Source: Alphaproteobacteria bacterium
GTDB lineage: Bacteria; Pseudomonadota; Alphaproteobacteria; RF32; CAG-239
Length of the DNA stretch: 44,321 nucleotides
Reading direction: 5' to 3'
Assembly (NCBI GenBank): GCA_017470165.1
Contig: JAFUEX010000019.1
Span: 1 to 44,321, forward strand
Of the stretch, positions 5,280-32,304 are shown piece after piece. How positions within the stretch are numbered: the first letter of the stretch is position 1; every line of letters begins with the position of its first letter. The notes beneath the pieces were generated by a model, which was not told where the DNA came from, ran no database searches, and saw only the letters and a program-made list of their open reading frames with translations. A program made the translations under genes and the position numbers.

Positions 5280-6326
5280 GTGGCTGATAAAGATATCGTC
5301 ATATCGATAGATGCGATGGGGGGAGATAAATCCCCCAAAATCGTGATAGAGGGGATGGCTTTAGCTGCCAAAAGCAATCCTAAGGTGAAATTTTTGGTTT
5401 TTGGCGACAGCGCAAAAGTTGCGCCGTTGTTGCAGAAGTTTCCCGAGCTTGACAAGGTTTGCGAGTTGCGTCACGCCCCTGAGATGGTACACAACGAGGA
5501 CAAACCCTCTTCGGTTATCCGCAACCGCAACACCAGTATGTTTATGGCGATTGATGCCGTACGGCGCGGCGAGGCTCAGGCTGTGGTTTCAGCCGGCAAC
5601 ACCGGAGCGCTTATGGCAATCTCCAAACTAACCCTGCGCACCATCAACAAAATTCATCGACCGGCCATTGTCAGCATTATGCCTCATCTTTACGGACGCT
5701 ATGTAATGATGGATTTGGGCGCCAACACTGAGTGCGACTCGGTAAATTTGTGCGAATTTGCCTTTATGGGAGAGATTTTGGCACGCCGCGCCTTGGGAAT
5801 TGAGCGTCCGCGGGTGGCGCTGCTCAATATCGGCTCCGAGGAGATGAAAGGCAAAGAAGAGATTAAACAAGCTGCGCAAATGATTAAAAACTCGCACGTC
5901 GATATGAACTTTATCGGCTATGTTGAACCGCACGATATTCAAAACGGTGTGGCGGATGTAGTGGTTGCCGACGGGTTCACCGGCAACATTGCCCTCAAAT
6001 CGATTGAAGGAACCGCCAAACAACTGGTTAAAATGTTCAAAGATGCTGTCAAAAACTCCTTTTTGGCCAAAATCGGCTTGCTGTTTATGTTGCCGGCCCT
6101 GTTCAAAATCAAAAAAATTATGGACCCCAGACTTTATAACGGAGCAATGTTCATTGGCTTGAACGGTCTGTCGGTCAAAAGCCATGGCGGTGCTGACGCT
6201 TTTTCTTTCTCCAAATCGATTGAAAATGCGGTGCACCTGGTCGAGCAGGATTTCATTCCGACGATTCGTCAAGAGGTTGACAAAGTCGACTTTGACGAGC
6301 TTCAAGCGGTTATGTACGATTACTAG
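5280..6326 (+). CDS. plsX: Phosphate acyltransferase PlsX
   Basis: PlsX (348 residues) makes acyl-phosphate from acyl-ACP at the membrane surface, the first step of phosphatidic acid synthesis through PlsY. Signatures are the N-terminal ISIDAMGGDKSP, the VVSAGNTGALMA motif, the LGANTECD segment and the late SHGGADAFSF motif. The start is GTG at 5280, with AAGGGGAG just upstream and the family N-terminus immediately after. It is 52 bases after rpmF. fabH, the usual next gene, is missing: a terminator follows and then the convergent ackA. Confidence 0.95.
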   Translation: MADKDIVISIDAMGGDKSPKIVIEGMALAAKSNPKVKFLVFGDSAKVAPLLQKFPELDKVCELRHAPEMVHNEDKPSSVIRNRNTSMFMAIDAVRRGEAQAVVSAGNTGALMAISKLTLRTINKIHRPAIVSIMPHLYGRYVMMDLGANTECDSVNLCEFAFMGEILARRALGIERPRVALLNIGSEEMKGKEEIKQAAQMIKNSHVDMNFIGYVEPHDIQNGVADVVVADGFTGNIALKSIEGTAKQLVKMFKDAVKNSFLAKIGLLFMLPALFKIKKIMDPRLYNGAMFIGLNGLSVKSHGGADAFSFSKSIENAVHLVEQDFIPTIRQEVDKVDFDELQAVMYDY

Positions 6327-6364
6327 CTCGGTAATAGCAGAGTTATCTGCCAGTTTATCTTCAG

Positions 6365-6399
6365 GACATCACTTTTTTTTCAAAGTGATGTCTTTTTTT
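6365..6399 (+). terminator. Rho-independent terminator of plsX
   Basis: GACATCACTTT (6365-6375) pairs with AAAGTGATGTC (6382-6392), followed by seven T. Confidence 0.9.
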
Positions 6400-6443
6400 A
6401 TCTTAGGTTCCGCTTTTTACCTTCAAAAAAACAGCAATAATAA

Positions 6444-6510
6444 TAAAAAAACAACCCTTACGATATCGGGTGTGTCATTTTAGCACACTACTTCAACCAT
6501 AAGGATTGTT
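6444..6510 (-). terminator. Probable terminator of ackA
   Basis: On the minus strand AACAATCCTTA (6510-6500) pairs with TAAGGGTTGTT (6460-6450) with one G-T wobble and is followed by a T-run (6450-6444). A smaller stem GTGTG/CACAC lies inside. It begins 30 bases past the ackA stop. Confidence 0.6.
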
Positions 6511-6540
6511 TTCTATTAGTATGTGGCGCCTTCGGCATTT

Positions 6541-7719
6541 TTACAGAAGAGCCAGCGAATCCCGCGCTATCATAACCTCTTCATCCGTCGGCACAACAAA
6601 ACACCGCACCTTGGAGCCTTCAGTCGATACTTCGGCAAATTTTCCGTGTACCTCATTGGCTTCATGGTTGACTTTGATGCCCAAAAAGGCCAGCTTCTCC
6701 ATAACCAATTGGCGCAAAATCGGCGAATTTTCACCGATGCCGGCCGTAAATGCAATCGCATCAAGTCCCTGCATCGCCGCCATATAACTGCCGATATAGC
6801 GAACCACGTTATAAACATAAACCTCCATAGCCATCACCGACTGCGGCTTACCTGCCAAATAATCACTCTCGACCTCCCGCATATCCGGATAGCCGGTCAA
6901 CCCCAGCATACCGCTTTGTTTGTTGAGCAAGTTGTTAACCTCATCTACACTCAAGCCTTGGGTTTTCATCAAATGCAGCGGCACATAAGCGTCGACATCT
7001 CCGCAACGCGAGCCCATCACAATACCCGACAACGGAGTAAATCCCATTGAGGTATCAATACATACCCCGTCATTGATTGCCGACAGCGATGCACCATTGC
7101 CCAAATGGCAAACCACCAGTTTTTTACCTTTGCCCAATATTTTTTCCATCTCTTGCGCAATATAACGATGCGAGGTTCCGTGCGCACCATAGCGCCGAAT
7201 GTGATGCTTTTCATATTGCTCCCAAGGCAAACCGTAAAGATAAGCCTCGCGCGGCATCGTCTGATGGAACGCCGTGTCAAAAACCGCAACCTGCGGCACA
7301 TTCGGCAAAATACTGCGCACTGCCTTGATACCGATAACCGCCGCCGGATTATGCAAAGGTGCCAAGGCCGACAAATCGGCAATATCTTGCAAAGCCTTGT
7401 CATCAATCAGGGCCGAGTGCTTAAATATCTCGCCACCATGCACCACACGATGCCCCACCACGGTAATCTCGCCCAAATCGGCAATTGCTCCGTCTTGCAA
7501 CAGCTTGAACACCTCGCGCAACGCCTCCTCATGCGAGGGCAAAGCTGTCTCCACCTCACGTTTGTTGCCTGAAGCATATTTGATTTTTATCTTGGAACCA
7601 TCAATGCCGATACGCTCGGACAGCCCTTTGGCCAGCACTTTATAGTCATCACCGTTCACATCAAACAATTGATATTTCAAAGACGAAGAGCCCGAGTTTA
7701 ATACCAAAACTTTTTTCAT
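6541..7719 (-). CDS. ackA: Acetate kinase
   Basis: AckA (392 residues) converts acetyl phosphate and ADP to acetate and ATP. The ASKHA signatures are all present: VLVLNSGSSSLK at the N-terminus, VVHGGE, the catalytic FDTAFHQTMP region, YGAHGTSH, VCHLGNGASLSAI, DTSMGFTPLSG and FTAGIGENSP near the C-terminus. The ATG at 7719 is chosen because the AAGGA site is 8 bases upstream of it; the TTG further out would place that site inside the gene. It follows pta by 29 bases, so the two form the standard Pta-AckA substrate-level phosphorylation operon, here fed by the pyruvate oxidoreductase encoded elsewhere in the window. Confidence 0.97.
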   Translation of the reverse strand: MKKVLVLNSGSSSLKYQLFDVNGDDYKVLAKGLSERIGIDGSKIKIKYASGNKREVETALPSHEEALREVFKLLQDGAIADLGEITVVGHRVVHGGEIFKHSALIDDKALQDIADLSALAPLHNPAAVIGIKAVRSILPNVPQVAVFDTAFHQTMPREAYLYGLPWEQYEKHHIRRYGAHGTSHRYIAQEMEKILGKGKKLVVCHLGNGASLSAINDGVCIDTSMGFTPLSGIVMGSRCGDVDAYVPLHLMKTQGLSVDEVNNLLNKQSGMLGLTGYPDMREVESDYLAGKPQSVMAMEVYVYNVVRYIGSYMAAMQGLDAIAFTAGIGENSPILRQLVMEKLAFLGIKVNHEANEVHGKFAEVSTEGSKVRCFVVPTDEEVMIARDSLALL

Positions 7720-14351: not shown

Positions 14352-14521
14352 ACAATTTTCCCGTGTCTAAAATTAAAAAAAAATTAACGATTCGTTAATC
14401 GTTATTATCATCATCTCATCTTGAGAAAACAAGCCGGTATGATTCTTATCCACACGCTTATGCACAACAATTTTTATCTTCGCACTATCACCTCTGTAAC
14501 ACTGATAATCATCAAGCCCTA

Positions 14522-14556
14522 ACAGCAAAAGCACCTCTCTCAGGTGCTTTTGCTGT
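14522..14556 (-). terminator. Terminator of the parvulin gene
   Basis: ACAGCAAAAGCACCT (14522-14536) pairs with AGGTGCTTTTGCTGT (14542-14556). The inner GCACCT/AGGTGC stem followed by TTTT works as a terminator in either direction; by position it ends the foldase gene. Confidence 0.75.
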
Positions 14557-14599
14557 CACAATTCAAAGACTTAATGATGATTGACGGACTTACAACAAG

Positions 14600-15412
14600 C
14601 TATAACTTGTTACCTTTCAAATCATACTTAACCACATCAGCCTTATTCTGCAACGAGCTTATCACATCACTCATTGCCTTTTTGGCCAGCATCATCTTCA
14701 ACTGCGGCTCAATACTCTTAAACGGCTCCGGTTTGGCATCGCGCACATCATCAATCATAATAACATGATAACCGAACTGCGTCTTCACCGGTTTTTGGCT
14801 GAATTGACCTTTTTTCATTTTCAGCGTAGCCTGTGCAAATTCCGGCACCATCATCTCCTGAATTTGCTCTTTGGTCAAATATCCCAACTCGGCCGGTTCT
14901 TTGGAATATTGCTTGGCCAATTTATCAAACTGCCCGTCGGAATTGAGTTTGGCAATTACTTCTTTGGCCACCGCCTCGCTGTCCACCAAAATATGTTTCA
15001 GGTTCATCTCTTGCTCGCCATGAAAAGTCCCCTTGTAATCCTCATAAAGTTTTTTCACTGCTTTGTCATTAACCGAAGCGCGCACCTTTTTATCCAAATA
15101 CATTTTGCGAGCCAGCTCCTTTTTGGCCTCGGCCAATTGCGCGGCATATTCCGGCGATTCGGTTATCTTATCGGCCATTGCCGCCTGATACACAATCTCA
15201 CCATCCACGAAAATATCCAGCGTGTTGTCATAAAACTCGTTAAACGACGTCTTTTCTTTCACTTTCGGATTCATATCATATGCGGTCTTGATATCCGCCA
15301 CTTTCACCTGCTTACCATTGACAACAGCGGCCACTCCGTCCTTGCCTGCAGCTTGTGCATTGACCGCAGCCAACACCCCCATCATTGCTAGGGCAATCAT
15401 TTTTTTGTTCAT
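14600..15412 (-). CDS. Exported parvulin-type peptidyl-prolyl isomerase
   Basis: A 270-residue periplasmic foldase of the PpiC/SurA type. A signal peptide (MNKKMIALAMMGVLAAVNAQA) is followed by a SurA-like helical N-domain (about 25-130), a parvulin rotamase domain (about 137-230; LKHILV, FDKLAKQYS, LGYLTKEQIQEMMVPEF, and FGYHVIMIDD), and a C-terminal helix that packs on the N-domain. It should help outer-membrane protein folding. It is divergent from secA, a frequent alphaproteobacterial arrangement that groups export functions. An AGGAG site lies 8 bases before the ATG. Confidence 0.88.
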   Translation of the reverse strand: MNKKMIALAMMGVLAAVNAQAAGKDGVAAVVNGKQVKVADIKTAYDMNPKVKEKTSFNEFYDNTLDIFVDGEIVYQAAMADKITESPEYAAQLAEAKKELARKMYLDKKVRASVNDKAVKKLYEDYKGTFHGEQEMNLKHILVDSEAVAKEVIAKLNSDGQFDKLAKQYSKEPAELGYLTKEQIQEMMVPEFAQATLKMKKGQFSQKPVKTQFGYHVIMIDDVRDAKPEPFKSIEPQLKMMLAKKAMSDVISSLQNKADVVKYDLKGNKL

Positions 15413-26029: not shown

Positions 26030-27442
26030 TTATTGCTCCGACTGCGGATTGTCCTTTTGGGAGCTGAAGATTGCTGCCAAAGTTTGCAAAACTTTTTGCC
26101 CTGCTTCGGTTGCCCCGAAAGCCTCAATTGCTTGTCCCAAAGCAGCTCCGCCTTTTGGCGAAAACAAATCTAGCGCTTTGGTAAGACCTCCTTGCACACC
26201 CTCACCGGCGTTCGCGATAATTTTTATCTGACTGCCGGAAATGTTTTTGGCCTGCTCAACTCCAACTGCTTCTTGCGCTTCAACCTTGCGAATCTCTATC
26301 AGATATTCCTGATAGTTCTTGTTGTCGCCCACCTCTTTGGCCAAAGTTGTCTGCGCCGCAACCGATGCCAACTGCATCTCTTTTTCAGCATCAGCTTTAG
26401 CCAAACCTTCGGCTTTGATACCCTCGGCATTTTTGGTAGCCTTTACCAAATCAGCCTCAGCTTCCATTTCTTTTTGGCCTCGTTTGGCTTCAGCTTCCAA
26501 CAGAATTCTCTGTTTTTCGGCCTGAGCTTCAACCACGGTTTTTTCTTTGGCAATTTCGGCTTGACGCACGGTCTCAACCTTTTTTACCTCCATTTCTTTC
26601 TCGGTGGTAACTTTGGCTTCTTCCTTAATGGCTTGCGTTGCTTGTTGATTAGCAATACCGACCTCGCGGTCTTTCTGCGCCTTACGCAAACCGACCATTT
26701 CGTCAGCTTCAGCTTGGCGCAAATCAACGTCTCGTTTGGCCTCCAACTCGGCAATGCGTGCTGCCTGATCATTTTTAGCCACTTGCTCGCGGGATTCTTT
26801 TTCGATGCCGGATTTTTTCTTCTTCATAATATTGGAGATAACTTCTTCGTCTTTGGCATCACGAATATCCATCAGCTCTATGGACTTAACCGGCTCGACG
26901 CCCCATGCCTTAAGCTGATCTTTCACCTCGTTGGTAAAAGTCTGTCCATACTTGGAACGCTCGCTCATAATCACCTCCAAATCTTCCTTGGCCAAAATGG
27001 TACGTGAGGCACCTCGGCAAATATCCAGCAATTGTTGTTTCAACTCGCCAAAATCCTCCACACGTTCGGCAGCCACTTTATAGTCGCTGATGCGGAAGAA
27101 CGCCTTGACATCCACCACAAACGGCAGACGGTCTTTGTCATAAGCATCATAGCCTTTAATATCAATGTCAAACACTGACAAAGGCAAAGTCGACACCGTA
27201 ACACCGATACCCGGAACCCACTGCGGCCAGCGATAATACGTATTGCCGCAAATCTCGTCCGCACCATCTTTTACCACCGCGGTATTACCATAAACCAAGG
27301 TTTTGCGGCCGCGACGCACAATGTGCACGGCATTAGTCGGCACCACAACCCTCAACGACAAAATAAAGCGCAACAGCAGCAACAATAAAACCAGCGCCAC
27401 CGCGCAAACTCCAATGATAATCCAGTTGATTGTCATAAGCAT
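26030..27442 (-). CDS. SPFH/flotillin-like membrane protein
   Basis: A 470-residue protein with one N-terminal membrane helix (about 5-30), an SPFH/Band 7 domain (about 35-215, including VVPTNAVHIVRRGRKTLVYG and a QLLDICRGASRTILAKEDLEVIMSERSKYGQTFTNEVKDQLKAWGVE helix segment), and a long Ala/Glu/Lys coiled coil (about 215-400). This is the layout of flotillins, which oligomerise in membrane microdomains. The C-terminus is an unstructured Gly/Ala then Gln/Ser region. ATG codons at 27442 and 27436 are both possible; no strong ribosome-binding site separates them. It is preceded by a 48-codon candidate gene and a promoter on the same strand. Partner NfeD is not nearby. Confidence 0.87.
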   Translation of the reverse strand: MLMTINWIIIGVCAVALVLLLLLLRFILSLRVVVPTNAVHIVRRGRKTLVYGNTAVVKDGADEICGNTYYRWPQWVPGIGVTVSTLPLSVFDIDIKGYDAYDKDRLPFVVDVKAFFRISDYKVAAERVEDFGELKQQLLDICRGASRTILAKEDLEVIMSERSKYGQTFTNEVKDQLKAWGVEPVKSIELMDIRDAKDEEVISNIMKKKKSGIEKESREQVAKNDQAARIAELEAKRDVDLRQAEADEMVGLRKAQKDREVGIANQQATQAIKEEAKVTTEKEMEVKKVETVRQAEIAKEKTVVEAQAEKQRILLEAEAKRGQKEMEAEADLVKATKNAEGIKAEGLAKADAEKEMQLASVAAQTTLAKEVGDNKNYQEYLIEIRKVEAQEAVGVEQAKNISGSQIKIIANAGEGVQGGLTKALDLFSPKGGAALGQAIEAFGATEAGQKVLQTLAAIFSSQKDNPQSEQ

Positions 27443-27500: not shown

Positions 27501-27647
27501 TTATACAAAAATGACTAATGTCTGGCGTATATTCTGATCCTCTGAAATCATAAGTTTCAAACTGCGAAATAAATCCACAGGGGCGGTTTTTTGGAGAAAA
27601 AACTCTTTAGCCTCGCATTTTGCATCTTTCGCAAACTCCAAGCGCAT
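27501..27647 (-). CDS. Candidate small protein, 48 aa, upstream of the SPFH gene
   Basis: An open frame from ATG at 27647 encodes 48 residues (starting MRLEFAKDAKCEAKEFF, ending RQTLVIFV), soluble and amphipathic. The ribosome-binding site is weak (GGAT 3 bases away). Support comes from context: a sigma-70 promoter candidate is 55 bases upstream and the terminator of the previous unit lies just beyond it, with the SPFH gene 58 bases downstream on the same strand. It could also be a non-coding 5' leader of the SPFH mRNA. No family recognised. Confidence 0.3.
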   Translation of the reverse strand: MRLEFAKDAKCEAKEFFLQKTAPVDLFRSLKLMISEDQNIRQTLVIFV

Positions 27648-27701
27648 ATTATCCGTTATCAGCTTCGATTAATAATTGGAAAAATAAGACAAATTGTGTA
27701 T

Positions 27702-27730
27702 TTTGTACACCTAACCGCTTTTTTTGTCAA
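27702..27730 (-). promoter_or_regulatory. Sigma-70 promoter candidate for the SPFH unit
   Basis: On the minus strand TTGACA (27730-27725), 17-base spacer, TACAAA (27707-27702). The -35 is perfect, the -10 poor. It lies directly past the terminator of the upstream small gene. Confidence 0.5.
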
Positions 27731-27740
27731 TGTTTTAAGT

Positions 27741-27772
27741 AAAAAAAATCCCGCACAAGCGGGAAATTTTTT
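27741..27772 (-). terminator. Terminator of the 59-residue membrane protein gene
   Basis: CCCGC (27750-27754) and GCGGG (27759-27763) around a 4-base loop. Read on the minus strand it is followed by a run of eight T (27748-27741), ending the small gene 37 bases past its stop. Confidence 0.85.
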
Positions 27773-27808
27773 CAAGTTTAGGTTTAATAAAACTTGCTTG
27801 CAGGTTGA

Positions 27809-27988
27809 TTATTCTGCTGCGTCAATCAATTCGGCCGCCTCGGTTGTATTTGCATCAGAGGCAATTTCATACTTTGTTTCGTCAGCATATTCCAACTTCA
27901 TCGAACTGACCAAAACCACCGCAACAGCTATCATAACCGCCACAATCAACAATGCAGACAATAAACCTGTTCCTTCAATTTTTTTCAT
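27809..27988 (-). CDS. Small single-span membrane protein, 59 aa
   Basis: Starts MKKIEGTGLL, followed by a 20-residue membrane helix (about 9-30, ALLIVAVMIAVAVVLVS), then an acidic tail (YADETKYEIASDANTTEAAELIDAAE). Two positive residues at the N-terminus and the acidic tail suggest the C-terminus is outside the cytoplasm. No known family. The ATG at 27988 is chosen because the promoter at 28034-28062 would start transcription close to the alternative ATG at 28027, leaving it without a leader. It is a complete unit: near-consensus promoter, gene, terminator. A reading frame on the opposite strand covers it but has no such signals. Confidence 0.65.
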   Translation of the reverse strand: MKKIEGTGLLSALLIVAVMIAVAVVLVSSMKLEYADETKYEIASDANTTEAAELIDAAE

Positions 27989-28033
27989 TTTACTTAAAAA
28001 TCTAATTTGTGAATAATTAAAAAACATCGGGTG

Positions 28034-28062
28034 AATATATACTCATCCCCTCAGCTTGTCAA
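28034..28062 (-). promoter_or_regulatory. Near-consensus sigma-70 promoter for the 59-residue protein
   Basis: On the minus strand TTGACA (28062-28057), 17-base spacer, TATATT (28039-28034). One mismatch from consensus overall. Transcription should begin near 28028, about 40 bases before the ATG at 27988. Confidence 0.75.
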
Positions 28063-28078
28063 GTTGTTAATTAAAACC

Positions 28079-28127
28079 TCGAGGCCTGATTAAATTCATC
28101 TTGCGAAGAAAAAAAATCAGACCTCGA
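28079..28127 (-). terminator. Hairpin ending the small transcript from 28440
   Basis: TCGAGGCCTGATT (28079-28091) and AATCAGACCTCGA (28115-28127) form a 13-bp stem. The one non-Watson-Crick position (28085/28121) is a G-U wobble in minus-strand RNA but a C-A mismatch in plus-strand RNA, so the minus strand is the more likely transcript. A short TTTT tract follows. Confidence 0.6.
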
Positions 28128-28148
28128 TATTTTTTTCAACCACGGTAA

Positions 28149-28262
28149 TTACATAGTTGCAACACAAGCTACGATTACCGCAACTATTGCGCTCGCGCCT
28201 GCAAACGCAAATATATCGTTAAAACTAATTGTTTTTACCGTGGTTACTATTTTCTCTGCCAT
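28149..28262 (-). CDS. Candidate 37-residue membrane microprotein
   Basis: The frame runs ATG (28262) to TAA (28149): MAEKIVTTVKTISFNDIF, then a hydrophobic Ala/Val helix (AFAGASAIVAVIVACVA) and TM. There is no convincing ribosome-binding site, which is the main objection. In favour: it lies inside a transcript with a perfect sigma-70 promoter and a terminator just past the stop, and the next gene on this strand is also a single-helix protein. An 11-bp perfect inverted repeat (28138-28148 / 28235-28245) brackets the frame, so the same RNA would be strongly folded, and it may be a regulatory RNA instead. Confidence 0.4.
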   Translation of the reverse strand: MAEKIVTTVKTISFNDIFAFAGASAIVAVIVACVATM

Positions 28263-28283
28263 AAGCAAAAAAAGCAGTTTTTT

Positions 28284-28323
28284 AAGAGGACGGTATCCTT
28301 TTATACCTCAGCTTATTCCTCTT
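28284..28323 (-). other. Leader hairpin of the small transcript
   Basis: AAGAGGA (28284-28290) pairs with TCCTCTT (28317-28323), with GGTAT (28292-28296) / ATACC (28303-28307) inside. On the minus-strand RNA it lies 20 bases before the candidate 37-residue gene. The AAGGA-like sequence is held in its inner loop, so it might control translation. Confidence 0.45.
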
Positions 28324-28439
28324 TGTTGTTAATAAATTAAGTTATCTGGATAATCTTATTTCACCAAATTAACTAACTAAAACCGCTAATTAATGGCACG
28401 TTCTATAAAAATAAAACAAAATAAGACTTAAACGTCGTT

Positions 28440-28468
28440 ATTATACCTCTTTTTTGCCTTTATGTCAA
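28440..28468 (-). promoter_or_regulatory. Perfect consensus sigma-70 promoter
   Basis: On the minus strand TTGACA (28468-28463), exactly 17 bases, TATAAT (28445-28440). Transcription should start near 28433 and run to the hairpin at 28079, about 350 bases. It is divergent from nifJ. This is the strongest-looking promoter noticed in the window. Confidence 0.8.
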
Positions 28469-28531
28469 GTTTTTGCGCCGTTTGCGCGATAATTTTTCCG
28501 CCGATTTTTTATCTTGTCAATATCGCATTTT

Positions 28532-28560
28532 TTGCTGGATTTTATAATCAAACCTTTATA
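28532..28560 (+). promoter_or_regulatory. Weak promoter candidate for nifJ
   Basis: TTGCTG (28532-28537), 17-base spacer, TTTATA (28555-28560), 43 bases before the nifJ start. A TATAAT at 28542-28547 is an alternative -10 without a good -35. Confidence 0.3.
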
Positions 28561-28602
28561 TATTGCAGTCAGACTAATTTTTTAATAAAAGGAAAAAACA
28601 TA

Positions 28603-31600
28603 ATGTCTGATGTGAAAATGAAAATGATGGACGGCAACGAGGCTGCGGCTTCTGTTGCTCACCGTATGAACGAGGTTTGCGTAATCTATCCGATTACCCC
28701 CTCCTCCCCGATGGGCGAATGGGCCGATGCCTGGTCTGCCGCCAAGCAAAAAAATATTTGGGGCGTTGTACCCGATGTTCAGGAGATGCAGTCGGAAGCC
28801 GGTGCCGCCGGTGCCTGCCACGGCTCCATACAGGCAGGTGCTCTAACCACCACCTTTACTGCCTCGCAAGGGCTGCTTTTGATGATACCCAATATGTACA
28901 AAATCGCCGGTGAGCTCAGCCCGTTTGTTATGCACGTTGCGGCGCGTTCGCTCTCTTATCATGCACTGTCGATTTTCGGCGACCATTCGGATGTTATGTC
29001 CTGCCGTCAAACCGGCTTTGCCATGCTCTGCTCCAACTCGGTGCAAGAGGCTCACGATATGGCGGCGATTGCCCAAACTTCGACCTTGCGTTCGCGCGTA
29101 CCGTTTATGCACTTTTTTGACGGTTTCCGTACCTCGCACGAAATCAAAAAGATTAAACTCCTTTCTGATGACGACTTGCGTGCAATGTTAGAAGGGGTTG
29201 ATTTCTCGTTCAATGCCGAAAATGCTTTGCGTCCGGAAAAACCGGTTTTGCGCGGCACTGCTCAAAATCCCGACGTATTCTTCCAAGGCCGCGAGGCTTC
29301 CAACAAATTCTATGCCAAGGTTGAAACCATTGTTCAAGAAGAGATGAACAAGTTTGCCAAAATTTCCGGTCGCAGATACAACGTGGTTGACTATTGTGGC
29401 CCCGAAGATGCCGAACAAGTTATCGTTATTATGGGCTCGGGTGCCGAAACCGTGGAAGAGACAATTGCATACCTCAACGCCAATGGTTATAAAGTTGGCT
29501 TGGTAAAGGTTCGTTTGTATCGTCCTTTCCCCTCGCAGTCGTTCTTAAAAGCTCTGCCCAAGTCGGTAAAAGTGGTCAATGTTTTGGACCGCACCAAAGA
29601 ATCCGGCTCCATCGGCGAGCCCTTGTATTTGGATGTTGTTACCACCTTGAGCCAAGCCTTTGCCAAGGGCAAAATTGCCTCATTGCCTGCTATTTACGGC
29701 GGCCGCTATGGTTTGTCATCCAAAGAGTTCACTCCGGGAATGGTTCGCGCGGTTTACGACAACGGTGCTTCGGCCAACCCGATTAACAGTTTCTCGGTAG
29801 GTATCAACGACGATGTCAACAATACCTCGTTGCCCTATTCCGATGACATTGACACCGAGGGCAAAGATGTTGTTCGCGCCGTATTTTACGGATTGGGCGC
29901 GGATGGCACGGTTGGCGCCAACAAAAACTCGATTAAAATTATCGCCGAAGATGCCGGTAAATACGGTCAGGGTTATTTTGTTTACGATTCGCGCAAATCC
30001 GGCTCAATGACCACTTCGCACCTGCGTTTTTCCGATAATCCGATTAAAGCGGCCTATCAGATTAACAAAGCCGACTTTGTGGCCTGCCACCAATTTCCGT
30101 TTATGGCCAAGGTTGATATCTTAAAGATTGCCAAACCGGGAGGAATTTTCTTGCTCAATGCGCCTTATGCCGCAGACGAGGTTTGGAATCACTTAACAGC
30201 CGAGGTTCAGGCCGAAATCATCAACAAGAAACTGGAGTTCTACACCATTAATGCGGTTGAAGTTGCCCGCGAAACCGGTATGGGCCAGCGCATCAACACC
30301 ATTATGCAGGCTTGTTTCTTTGCGATTTCCAACATTTTGCCTAAGGATGAGGCAATTGCGCAGATTAAAAACGCCATTAAGAAAACCTATTCCAAGAAAG
30401 GCGATGCAATCGTTCAGAAGAACTATGCCGCAGTTGATGCCTCACTGGAGCACCTGCACAAGGTTGATTATTCCAAGGAGGTTACCTCGGCTCTGCATCG
30501 TCAGGCTCCGGTTCCTGCCAACGCCCCTGAGTTTGTCAAGAAAGTAACTGCCGAAATTATTGCCGACCGCGGCAATGAGTTGCCGGTATCTGCTTTCAAC
30601 GAGGTTGTTGACGGCACTTGGCCGACCGGTACCACTAAGTTTGAGAAGCGCTGCATTGCTACCGAAATTCCGGTTTGGGACAGTGACACTTGCATCCAGT
30701 GCGGCAAATGCTCGATTGTCTGCCCGCACGGCGTCATCCGGATGAAAGTAGCTTCCGCCGAAGATTTGCAAAATGCTCCTTCCTCATTGAAATCTGCCGC
30801 CTACAAAGGCAAAGAGTTTGAGGGCAAGAAATTTATTCTGCAAATTTCGCCCGAGGACTGCACAGGATGCGGCATATGCGTTTCGGCTTGTCCGGCTAAA
30901 AACAAGGCCGCTCCTGAGCTGCACGCCATCAATATGGATCATATTGAGAACCATTTGGAATCCGAAGTTGCCAACTGGAATTTCTTTGAGACTTTGCCTT
31001 ATGTAAAGCGCACCGAAATTTCCAAGAACTTGCCCAAAACCACTCAGATGATTCAGCCTCTGTTTGAATTTTCGGGTGCCTGCGCCGGCTGCGGTGAAAC
31101 TCCTTATATCAAACTGCTAACTCAGTTGTTTGGCGATAGGATGTTGGTTGCCAACGCTACCGGCTGCTCGTCAATTTACTCGGGCAATCTGCCGACCACC
31201 CCTTATACCAAAGACGAAAAAGGCCATGGTCCGGCTTGGTCAAACTCTTTGTTTGAGGACAATGCCGAGTTTGGTTTGGGGATGCGTTTCTCGGTTGACC
31301 AGCAGACCTCTTTTGCCAAGATGCTGTTGGAAGGCTTAAAAGACAAGGTTGGCGCTGATTTAACCGACCGACTGCTCAACAACCCGCAAAAAACCGATGT
31401 CGAGATTGACACTCAGCGCGATTTGGTCAAACAGTTGCGCGACAAATTGGCCGGCATAAAAACGCCTGAAGCCAAACATCTCGACAAATTGGCCGATTAT
31501 TTGATTAAGAAATCGGTATGGATTTTGGGCGGCGACGGCTGGGCTTATGACATCGGCTTCGGCGGCTTGGATCACGCGATTGCTTCCGGCAAAAACATCA

Positions 31601-32163
31601 ACATTTTGGTTATGGATACTGGAGTTTATTCCAACACCGGCGGTCAGCAGTCTAAGGCAACCCCGATGGGAGCTTCGGCCAAATTTGCCACTGCCGGCAA
31701 AGCCTTGCCGAAAAAGGATTTGGGTATGATTGCTATGTCCTATGGCAATGTTTATGTTGCTCAAGTATCTTTGGGAGCTAACGATGCTCAAGTCATCAAA
31801 GCAATGAACGAGGCTGAGGCTTATGACGGCCCCTCCATCATCATTGCCTACTCGCACTGCATCGCCCAAGGTTTCAATTTGGCTGATGGCCTGAGCCACC
31901 AAAAGGCGGCGGTTGAAACCGGTTCTTGGCCGCTGTATCGCTACAATCCTGAAAACATTAAGGAAGGCAAAGCGCCTCTGACCTTGGATTCCAAGGCTCC
32001 GTCGCGTCCTTTGTCGGATTATATGTCCAACGAAACCCGTTTTCAGGTCGTCAATAAGCAAAACCCCGAGCGTTATGAAGCCCTTTTGGGCAAAGCTCAG
32101 GAGAACGTCAAAGAAAAACGTTCGCTGCTGGAGCATATGTCCGAGTTTAAGATTGCCGAATAA
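28603..32163 (+). CDS. nifJ: Pyruvate:ferredoxin (flavodoxin) oxidoreductase
   Basis: A single-chain PFOR of 1186 residues that oxidises pyruvate to acetyl-CoA and CO2 and reduces ferredoxin or flavodoxin. The pyrimidine-binding N-domain carries VIYPITPSSPMGEWADAW. A ferredoxin domain holds two 4Fe-4S sites: C697, C700, C703, C707 and C753, C756, C759, C763. The third cluster fits C827, C830, C855 and C1086, the spacing expected for the family. The TPP domain shows GGDGWAYDIGFGGLDH and VYSNTGGQQSKATPMG. The ATG at 28603 has AAGGA 10 bases upstream; longer in-frame extension codes for nothing recognisable. Together with Pta-AckA it gives pyruvate to acetate with ATP. Confidence 0.96.
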   Translation: MSDVKMKMMDGNEAAASVAHRMNEVCVIYPITPSSPMGEWADAWSAAKQKNIWGVVPDVQEMQSEAGAAGACHGSIQAGALTTTFTASQGLLLMIPNMYKIAGELSPFVMHVAARSLSYHALSIFGDHSDVMSCRQTGFAMLCSNSVQEAHDMAAIAQTSTLRSRVPFMHFFDGFRTSHEIKKIKLLSDDDLRAMLEGVDFSFNAENALRPEKPVLRGTAQNPDVFFQGREASNKFYAKVETIVQEEMNKFAKISGRRYNVVDYCGPEDAEQVIVIMGSGAETVEETIAYLNANGYKVGLVKVRLYRPFPSQSFLKALPKSVKVVNVLDRTKESGSIGEPLYLDVVTTLSQAFAKGKIASLPAIYGGRYGLSSKEFTPGMVRAVYDNGASANPINSFSVGINDDVNNTSLPYSDDIDTEGKDVVRAVFYGLGADGTVGANKNSIKIIAEDAGKYGQGYFVYDSRKSGSMTTSHLRFSDNPIKAAYQINKADFVACHQFPFMAKVDILKIAKPGGIFLLNAPYAADEVWNHLTAEVQAEIINKKLEFYTINAVEVARETGMGQRINTIMQACFFAISNILPKDEAIAQIKNAIKKTYSKKGDAIVQKNYAAVDASLEHLHKVDYSKEVTSALHRQAPVPANAPEFVKKVTAEIIADRGNELPVSAFNEVVDGTWPTGTTKFEKRCIATEIPVWDSDTCIQCGKCSIVCPHGVIRMKVASAEDLQNAPSSLKSAAYKGKEFEGKKFILQISPEDCTGCGICVSACPAKNKAAPELHAINMDHIENHLESEVANWNFFETLPYVKRTEISKNLPKTTQMIQPLFEFSGACAGCGETPYIKLLTQLFGDRMLVANATGCSSIYSGNLPTTPYTKDEKGHGPAWSNSLFEDNAEFGLGMRFSVDQQTSFAKMLLEGLKDKVGADLTDRLLNNPQKTDVEIDTQRDLVKQLRDKLAGIKTPEAKHLDKLADYLIKKSVWILGGDGWAYDIGFGGLDHAIASGKNINILVMDTGVYSNTGGQQSKATPMGASAKFATAGKALPKKDLGMIAMSYGNVYVAQVSLGANDAQVIKAMNEAEAYDGPSIIIAYSHCIAQGFNLADGLSHQKAAVETGSWPLYRYNPENIKEGKAPLTLDSKAPSRPLSDYMSNETRFQVVNKQNPERYEALLGKAQENVKEKRSLLEHMSEFKIAE

Positions 32164-32192
32164 TCCTTAAAACTTGGTATTGCTTACCTCTC

Positions 32193-32230
32193 CCCCAAGC
32201 TCTGCCATTCCGGAGCTTGGGGATTTTTTT
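32193..32230 (+). terminator. Rho-independent terminator of nifJ
   Basis: CCCCAAGCTC (32193-32202) pairs with GAGCTTGGGG (32213-32222), then ATTTTTTT. Confidence 0.92.
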
Positions 32231-32244
32231 ATTGCGCTTAGCAC

Positions 32245-32272
32245 TTGACAAAATACGGTATTTGTCTAAAAT
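32245..32272 (+). promoter_or_regulatory. Promoter with inverted repeat before the orphan gene at 32305
   Basis: TTGACA (32245-32250), 16-base spacer, TAAAAT (32267-32272). GACAAA (32247-32252) and TTTGTC (32261-32266) form an inverted repeat lying across the -35 and spacer, a place where a repressor would block RNA polymerase. Confidence 0.55.
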
Positions 32273-32304
32273 AAGCCACATAACAAAATTAAATATTCAT
32301 TATT

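Follow-up and report, generated by a model that had tools for sequence, protein, structure and literature searches.

Locus and gene order

The window analysed here is the whole stretch of 44,321 nt that forms contig C10 of an alphaproteobacterial genome (G000; assembly 1.45 Mb, 88.9% complete). The locus is flanked by the divergent gene for pyruvate:ferredoxin oxidoreductase (POR) and by an SPFH/Band 7 gene, both recognized by protein-library matches. As shown in Table 1, its features lie on the minus strand: a sigma-70-type promoter, a folded leader, a 37-codon frame with one hydrophobic segment and a 3' hairpin, beyond which the promoter of a second small unit begins. No tRNA or tmRNA was found in the window. 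Literature searches by general terms found no title on the genus or the locus. From its sequence we regard the locus as a real unit and as an orphan.

Table 1. Features of the locus and its surroundings (window coordinates)
Feature	Position	Strand	Basis or remark
POR gene	start near 28600	+	divergent from the locus
Sigma-70-type promoter, TTGACA-17-TATAAT	28440..28468	-	12/12 consensus positions
Hairpin A, branched 5' leader stem	28352..28428	-	MFE fold, pair probabilities 0.67-1.0; z -4.8 for 28433-28350
Hairpin B	28284..28323	-	MFE fold; z -3.0 for 28325-28280
Hairpin C, whose 3-nt loop UAU contains the first two bases of the AUG	28246..28278	-	MFE fold
37-codon frame, one hydrophobic segment	28149..28262	-	MAEKIVTTVKTISFNDIFAFAGASAIVAVIVACVATM
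Domain D, its ends paired through the perfect inverted repeat of 11 bp	28138..28245	-	z -5.4 for 28247-28136
11-bp perfect repeat	arms 28235-28245 and 28138-28148	-	
Hairpin E, 12 bp including a single G-U pair, probable end of the transcript	28080..28126	-	MFE fold
Promoter of the next unit, TTGACA-17-TATATT	28034..28062	-	11/12
Neighbouring 59-codon frame with membrane segment, separate small unit	27809..27988	-	
Terminator-like site after the neighbouring unit	27749..27764	-	6-bp stem, then T8
SPFH/Band 7 gene	26030-27442	-	

The initial annotation had reported an exact TTGACA-N17-TATAAT on the minus strand at 28468-28440, and every consensus position is indeed matched. It is the sole perfect promoter in the window at spacings of 16 to 18. 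The whole genome has 6 such promoters, against 0 for a reversed-pattern control; over the 36 genomes of the genus, our own included, the count is 44 against 22, and a perfect match is therefore genus-wide only about twice as frequent as the control. Since three of the other five perfect promoters of the genome precede ordinary frames, a perfect promoter cannot be taken as the sign of an RNA gene. Another of the genome's perfect promoters (L169, G000:C17:239-267) lies near a contig end and has no long downstream frame in the 267 bases available; by eye, a GAAAGTTGA/CAGCTTTC stem seems possible at the start of its transcript.

The 59-codon frame of the neighbouring unit has gene-like codon usage (0.36 bits per codon) and a membrane peak of 3.24. 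Its search in the 36 genus genomes gave no convincing homologue, the best other match having an E value of 0.03.

RNA folding

The minus-strand RNA from 28433 to 28060 (374 nt) folded with a minimum free energy of -115.2 kcal/mol, compared with -75.9 for 100 shuffles, none of which was as low (z -7.7). The fold as a whole exceeds chance. It ranked first among the 498 stretches of 354 nt in the window (next -6.4) and also among the 1040 stretches of 170 nt (next locus -6.0). The minus strand folded with a z of -7.8 and the plus strand with -3.0; by this strand difference the locus ranks only third in minus bias among the 520 stretches compared. Other strong folds, with z of about -5 to -6.4, were seen in the window at 14451-14868 (minus), 6196-6549 (minus), 32131-32300 (plus) and 256-425.

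Pair probabilities were mostly high in hairpins A to E, and 19 of the 129 pairs in the fold are G-U. The leader of about 170 bases with a nested hairpin that had been annotated was recovered: about 171 nt precede the frame (177 nt counted from the -10 box), and the hairpin spans about 28428-28352. The odd pair of hairpin E was likewise read correctly as a wobble on the minus strand only, being A-C on the plus strand. The U tail behind this hairpin is weak on the minus strand (AGGUUUUAAUUAAC), and a longer T run follows on the plus strand; hairpin E could thus be bidirectional. It is a putative terminator, outside the reach of our terminator scan, which had a loop limit of 8. The promoter of the next unit (28062-28034) begins 17 nt past it.

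The 11-bp inverted repeat is exact, as annotated, at 28138-28148 and 28235-28245, but its arms do not enclose the frame. The 5' arm falls within the frame: it begins 17 nt past the start of the ATG, in the last part of codon 6, and reaches into the first part of codon 10. The 3' arm directly follows the stop codon, outside the frame. The window holds 4 perfect 11-bp repeats, and 20 shuffles of the window held 0 to 4; a shuffled 374-nt segment carried one in 65 of 2000 cases. By itself, such a repeat is ordinary and not rare. The exact repeat pattern was searched in genome_contigs and viral_contigs and gave 0 hits.

The 37-codon frame

The frame would encode a peptide whose hydrophobic peak is 2.62 (Kyte-Doolittle, 19 residues). 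No Shine-Dalgarno sequence precedes it, and the initial description of a 37-residue hydrophobic frame lacking a clear ribosome-binding site is correct; the missing site says little, since 15 of the 29 long frames in the window lack one by an equally rough test. Its codon score was -0.08 bits per codon, compared with 0.35 (sd 0.21) for the genes of the window and -0.18 (sd 0.24) for 290 frames overlapping genes. Codon usage is not gene-like; it does not decide whether the frame is coding, but stands nearer to the non-coding side.

The length of the frame is unremarkable: an ATG frame of at least 37 codons occurred in 12% of shuffles and in 18% of structure-keeping permutations (5000 each). When a peak of at least 2.3 was asked for as well, the shares fell to 0.20% and 0.26% (5000 each). 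None of 99 spurious ATG frames of 30 to 60 codons inside window genes reached this peak; of 19 intergenic frames of that size, with the neighbouring small gene treated as a longer frame, one did, namely the 37-codon frame itself. These hydrophobicity tests followed the choice of the frame.

Folding of the full RNA showed the start region paired, and so did folding of five versions trimmed at the 5' end, the 3' end or both. The first two bases of the AUG fall in the loop of hairpin C, which is 3 nt long, and this hairpin stayed closed in all five trims.

Search for relatives

By blastn, the locus matched its own copy alone among 59 genomes (58 others), and it is present once in its own genome (E 0.001). 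With a single own copy and none in the 58 other genomes, a mobile repeat of the MITE kind was rejected. The peptide had no convincing homologue in 36 genus and 153 family genomes, own included; the best other match had an E value of 0.04. Besides the own match, six weak ones were obtained (E 0.04-0.49; G027 twice, G007, G006, G012, G032). We read five of these loci (L033-L036 and L038) and took the matches for chance: two cross a stop, two lie within longer frames, and the frame at L038, 39 codons from stop to stop, has no ATG. The peptide hit no family in Pfam, NCBIfam or PADLOC and one in PHROGs at E 0.76. Phages and plasmids gave no match, whether by DNA or by peptide.

A covariance model was built from domain D and hairpin E of this single sequence, and is hence weak. 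It found no convincing relative in 36 genus, 385 class and 153 family genomes, own included, the class genomes being a sample and the class and family searches using stricter filters that lose weak matches. In the genus, nine matches in other genomes had E values of 0.23-3.9; on the plus strand, the model also matched our own 3' hairpin, with E 0.023. In the family, matches of 25.4, 24.7 and 18.5 bits in G476, G477 and G437 (L176-L178) were taken as chance. The match of L177 lies within a long frame, that of L178 within a 412-residue frame, and that of L176 overlaps the start of a flagellar-type frame and extends past it; L176 and L177 do not align with each other.

Rfam 15 gave 0 matches at the gathering cut-off in the window, in agreement with the initial remark that the RNA resembled none known to the annotator. 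In a permissive scan of 27600-28620, the best match overlapping the transcript reached 20.3 bits against a cut-off of 100. A diverged 6S RNA was also considered and rejected: 27 of the 36 genus genomes have an RF00013 match (153-159 nt), and the three loci that we read (L170, L171, L173) adjoin another gene. In the own assembly, 88.9% complete, RF00013 was not found, which may reflect a gap.

The initial annotation had said that a lack of conservation of both stems and frame in related genomes would refute it. Nothing convincing was found for either in 35 other genus and 152 other family genomes, a result by which the proposal would count as refuted on its own terms. The folded stretch behind a textbook promoter appears confined to one species within an uncultured genus.

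The slot beside POR in congeners

The DNA upstream of POR was read in 29 congener loci (L003-L031), two of which, L020 and L028, are truncated by contig ends. Promoters were compared by eye in 11 of them (L003-L009 and L011-L014), and the promoter positions and distances given below come from this hand comparison; lipobox and membrane labels were also assigned by eye. A TTG box with 17-nt spacing stands in the same place in nine of the 11 (L003-L009, L011 and L014) and is absent from that place in L012 and L013. The position of the promoter is old, being kept in most of the relatives inspected. The upstream DNA of L012 and L013 (genomes G010 and G023) is repeat-rich, with HPER-like and VERG-like words in several frames.

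What follows the promoter varies from species to species. The nearest loci, L003-L006, have 71-97 aligned bases adjoining POR in common with the window, and nothing significant further by blastn; in them a lipobox-bearing frame of 133-184 residues begins 24-39 nt past the -10 box. L007 encodes a 35-residue hydrophobic peptide (peak 2.26) that begins 52 nt past the -10 box and for which the other 35 genus genomes gave no good relative (best E 0.07). The frames of L003-L007 resemble ours in standing behind the same promoter position and in having an N-terminal or single hydrophobic segment; they differ from it in sequence and in the distance from the -10 box to the ATG, which is 24-52 nt in them and 177 nt here. 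In L008, L009, L011 and L014, the first long frame encodes 281-300 residues with an N-terminal hydrophobic segment and begins 212-276 nt past the -10 box. Ahead of this membrane protein, L009 has a short hydrophilic frame of 52 residues and L014 one of 35. The slot promoter may serve these long frames, and the argument from the slot is weakened for these four of the nine congeners because of the distances. Our own leader exceeds the spacing in L003-L007 and not the gaps of the other four. The products behind the slot promoter thus seem to differ by species and to be mostly membrane-bound or exported. Since the gene content of the slot varies between species, the lack of homologues is weak evidence against function.

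Stretches of 354 nt at the slot were folded for 26 congeners, using automatic promoter picks of which some were off (L003, L008, L009, L011 and L014 among them). Three folded about as strongly as ours: L004 (z -6.6), where the stretch is the lipoprotein-like frame, L007 (-7.3) and L012 (-8.8), where it is repeat-rich. The remaining 23 lay between -3.3 and +2.5. With three of 26 slot stretches folding about equally, a strong fold is not proof of a noncoding RNA; in these genomes, a strong single-sequence fold alone fails to separate noncoding RNA from mRNA.

Interpretation of the locus

A short transcription unit on the minus strand is supported in silico, because the position of the promoter is kept in relatives, the fold is strand-biased, a 3' hairpin is present and the next promoter follows. 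Such a unit would be transcribed from the minus strand and end near 28070. Our preferred reading, held tentatively and at somewhat under an even chance, is that the product is a short mRNA, restricted to this species, which encodes a single-pass membrane peptide of 37 residues and whose translation is held down by hairpin C. With the start region paired, translation would be poor, and little peptide would be made unless hairpin C were opened or cut; the peptide would insert into the inner membrane. The slot beside POR would then be a site of turnover, in which an old promoter stands ahead of genes for membrane or exported proteins that vary from species to species. The initial annotation had left open a small RNA, a microprotein such as a type I toxin, or both. 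Of these, the microprotein gains from the hydrophobicity control and from the slot products of relatives, while no antisense signal stands out in favour of a type I toxin.

The close rival, which we think somewhat less likely, is a small structured RNA that is noncoding and would work through base pairing or by binding a protein, with the 37-codon frame as a by-product. It would suit the best-folded minus-strand stretch of the window, with its z of -7.8 compared with -3.0 on the plus strand, its high pair probabilities and its G-U pairs (19 of 129), as well as a frame whose AUG is paired and whose codon usage is not gene-like. However, the fold is not diagnostic, as L004, L007 and L012 show, the strand difference is just third of 520, and the hydrophobicity of the frame is above chance. 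Small RNAs carrying short coding frames resemble the locus in combining a strong fold with a short hydrophobic frame; PMC5521070 names comparative genomics as a basis, whereas no relatives on which to test selection were found for this locus.

Type I toxins are small hydrophobic peptides, usually under 60 residues. On this analogy, the peptide could be toxic to the membrane, its mRNA inert through structure, and an antisense RNA could run from the plus strand over the leader, an arrangement that we consider unlikely. The locus is like the mRNAs of hok, tisB, dinQ, zorO and aapA in its predicted short hydrophobic peptide and in its structured, presumably translation-poor transcript with a closed start. 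A promoter-like site (28326-28354) and a terminator-like site (28473-28489) on the plus strand would frame such an antisense RNA. However, the promoter-like site matches at 9/12, as do eight of the 11 sites found in 2.5 kb, where shuffles gave a mean of 5.0 (sd 2.0); terminator-like sites number 4 where 3.4 are expected. According to published accounts, hok, tisB and aapA mRNAs are inert and structured (PMC5668327, PMC8167048), the mok-hok primary mRNA has 398 nt (PMC5668327) and the AapA1 mRNA is inert through long-distance pairing (PMC8167048). In our locus what blocks the start is a hairpin formed locally around the AUG, which none of the five trims opens, in contrast to the 5'-3' lock of the hok and AapA1 kind. 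The only contact between the ends, of 3 bp, appears in the 374-nt MFE structure and is absent from the centroid and from the 353-nt fold. No toxin family was matched in the peptide searches described above. We do not file the locus as a type I toxin, because neither kinship nor a long-distance lock was found and no antisense signal stands out.

An improbable reading is a gene for RNA and peptide together, born in this lineage. The five hairpins would make a stable RNA with a function of its own, and the membrane peptide would be made only once the hairpin that carries the start codon in its tip had been cut, which would leave an almost leaderless AUG. Such a gene would act as a toxin of a type I-like sort, or as a regulator, with a local lock and no need of an antisense RNA, and would have arisen in one species at a slot with turnover of membrane-protein genes.

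A non-functional relic, in which the old promoter has lost its gene and the leftover DNA carries fortuitous inverted repeats, would fit the lack of a convincing homologue in any search and the differing gene content of the slot, but is made improbable by the perfect promoter, the fold far beyond shuffles, the hydrophobic frame and the tight succession in which promoter, folded RNA, 3' hairpin and next promoter are laid out.

If the mRNA reading holds, an old promoter next to a gene of central metabolism would act as a docking site at which genes for membrane proteins are swapped or born from one species to the next, and the POR slot would be a compact place to study the origin of structured RNAs and of orphan microproteins. 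With POR as the anchor, a scan of genome_contigs yielded at least 80 loci. Two of these, L077 (JAISVX010000003.1) and L079 (JAISFX010000102.1), are titled Lactobacillaceae and Lactobacillus and have a POR 82% identical to that of the window; these titles may be wrong.
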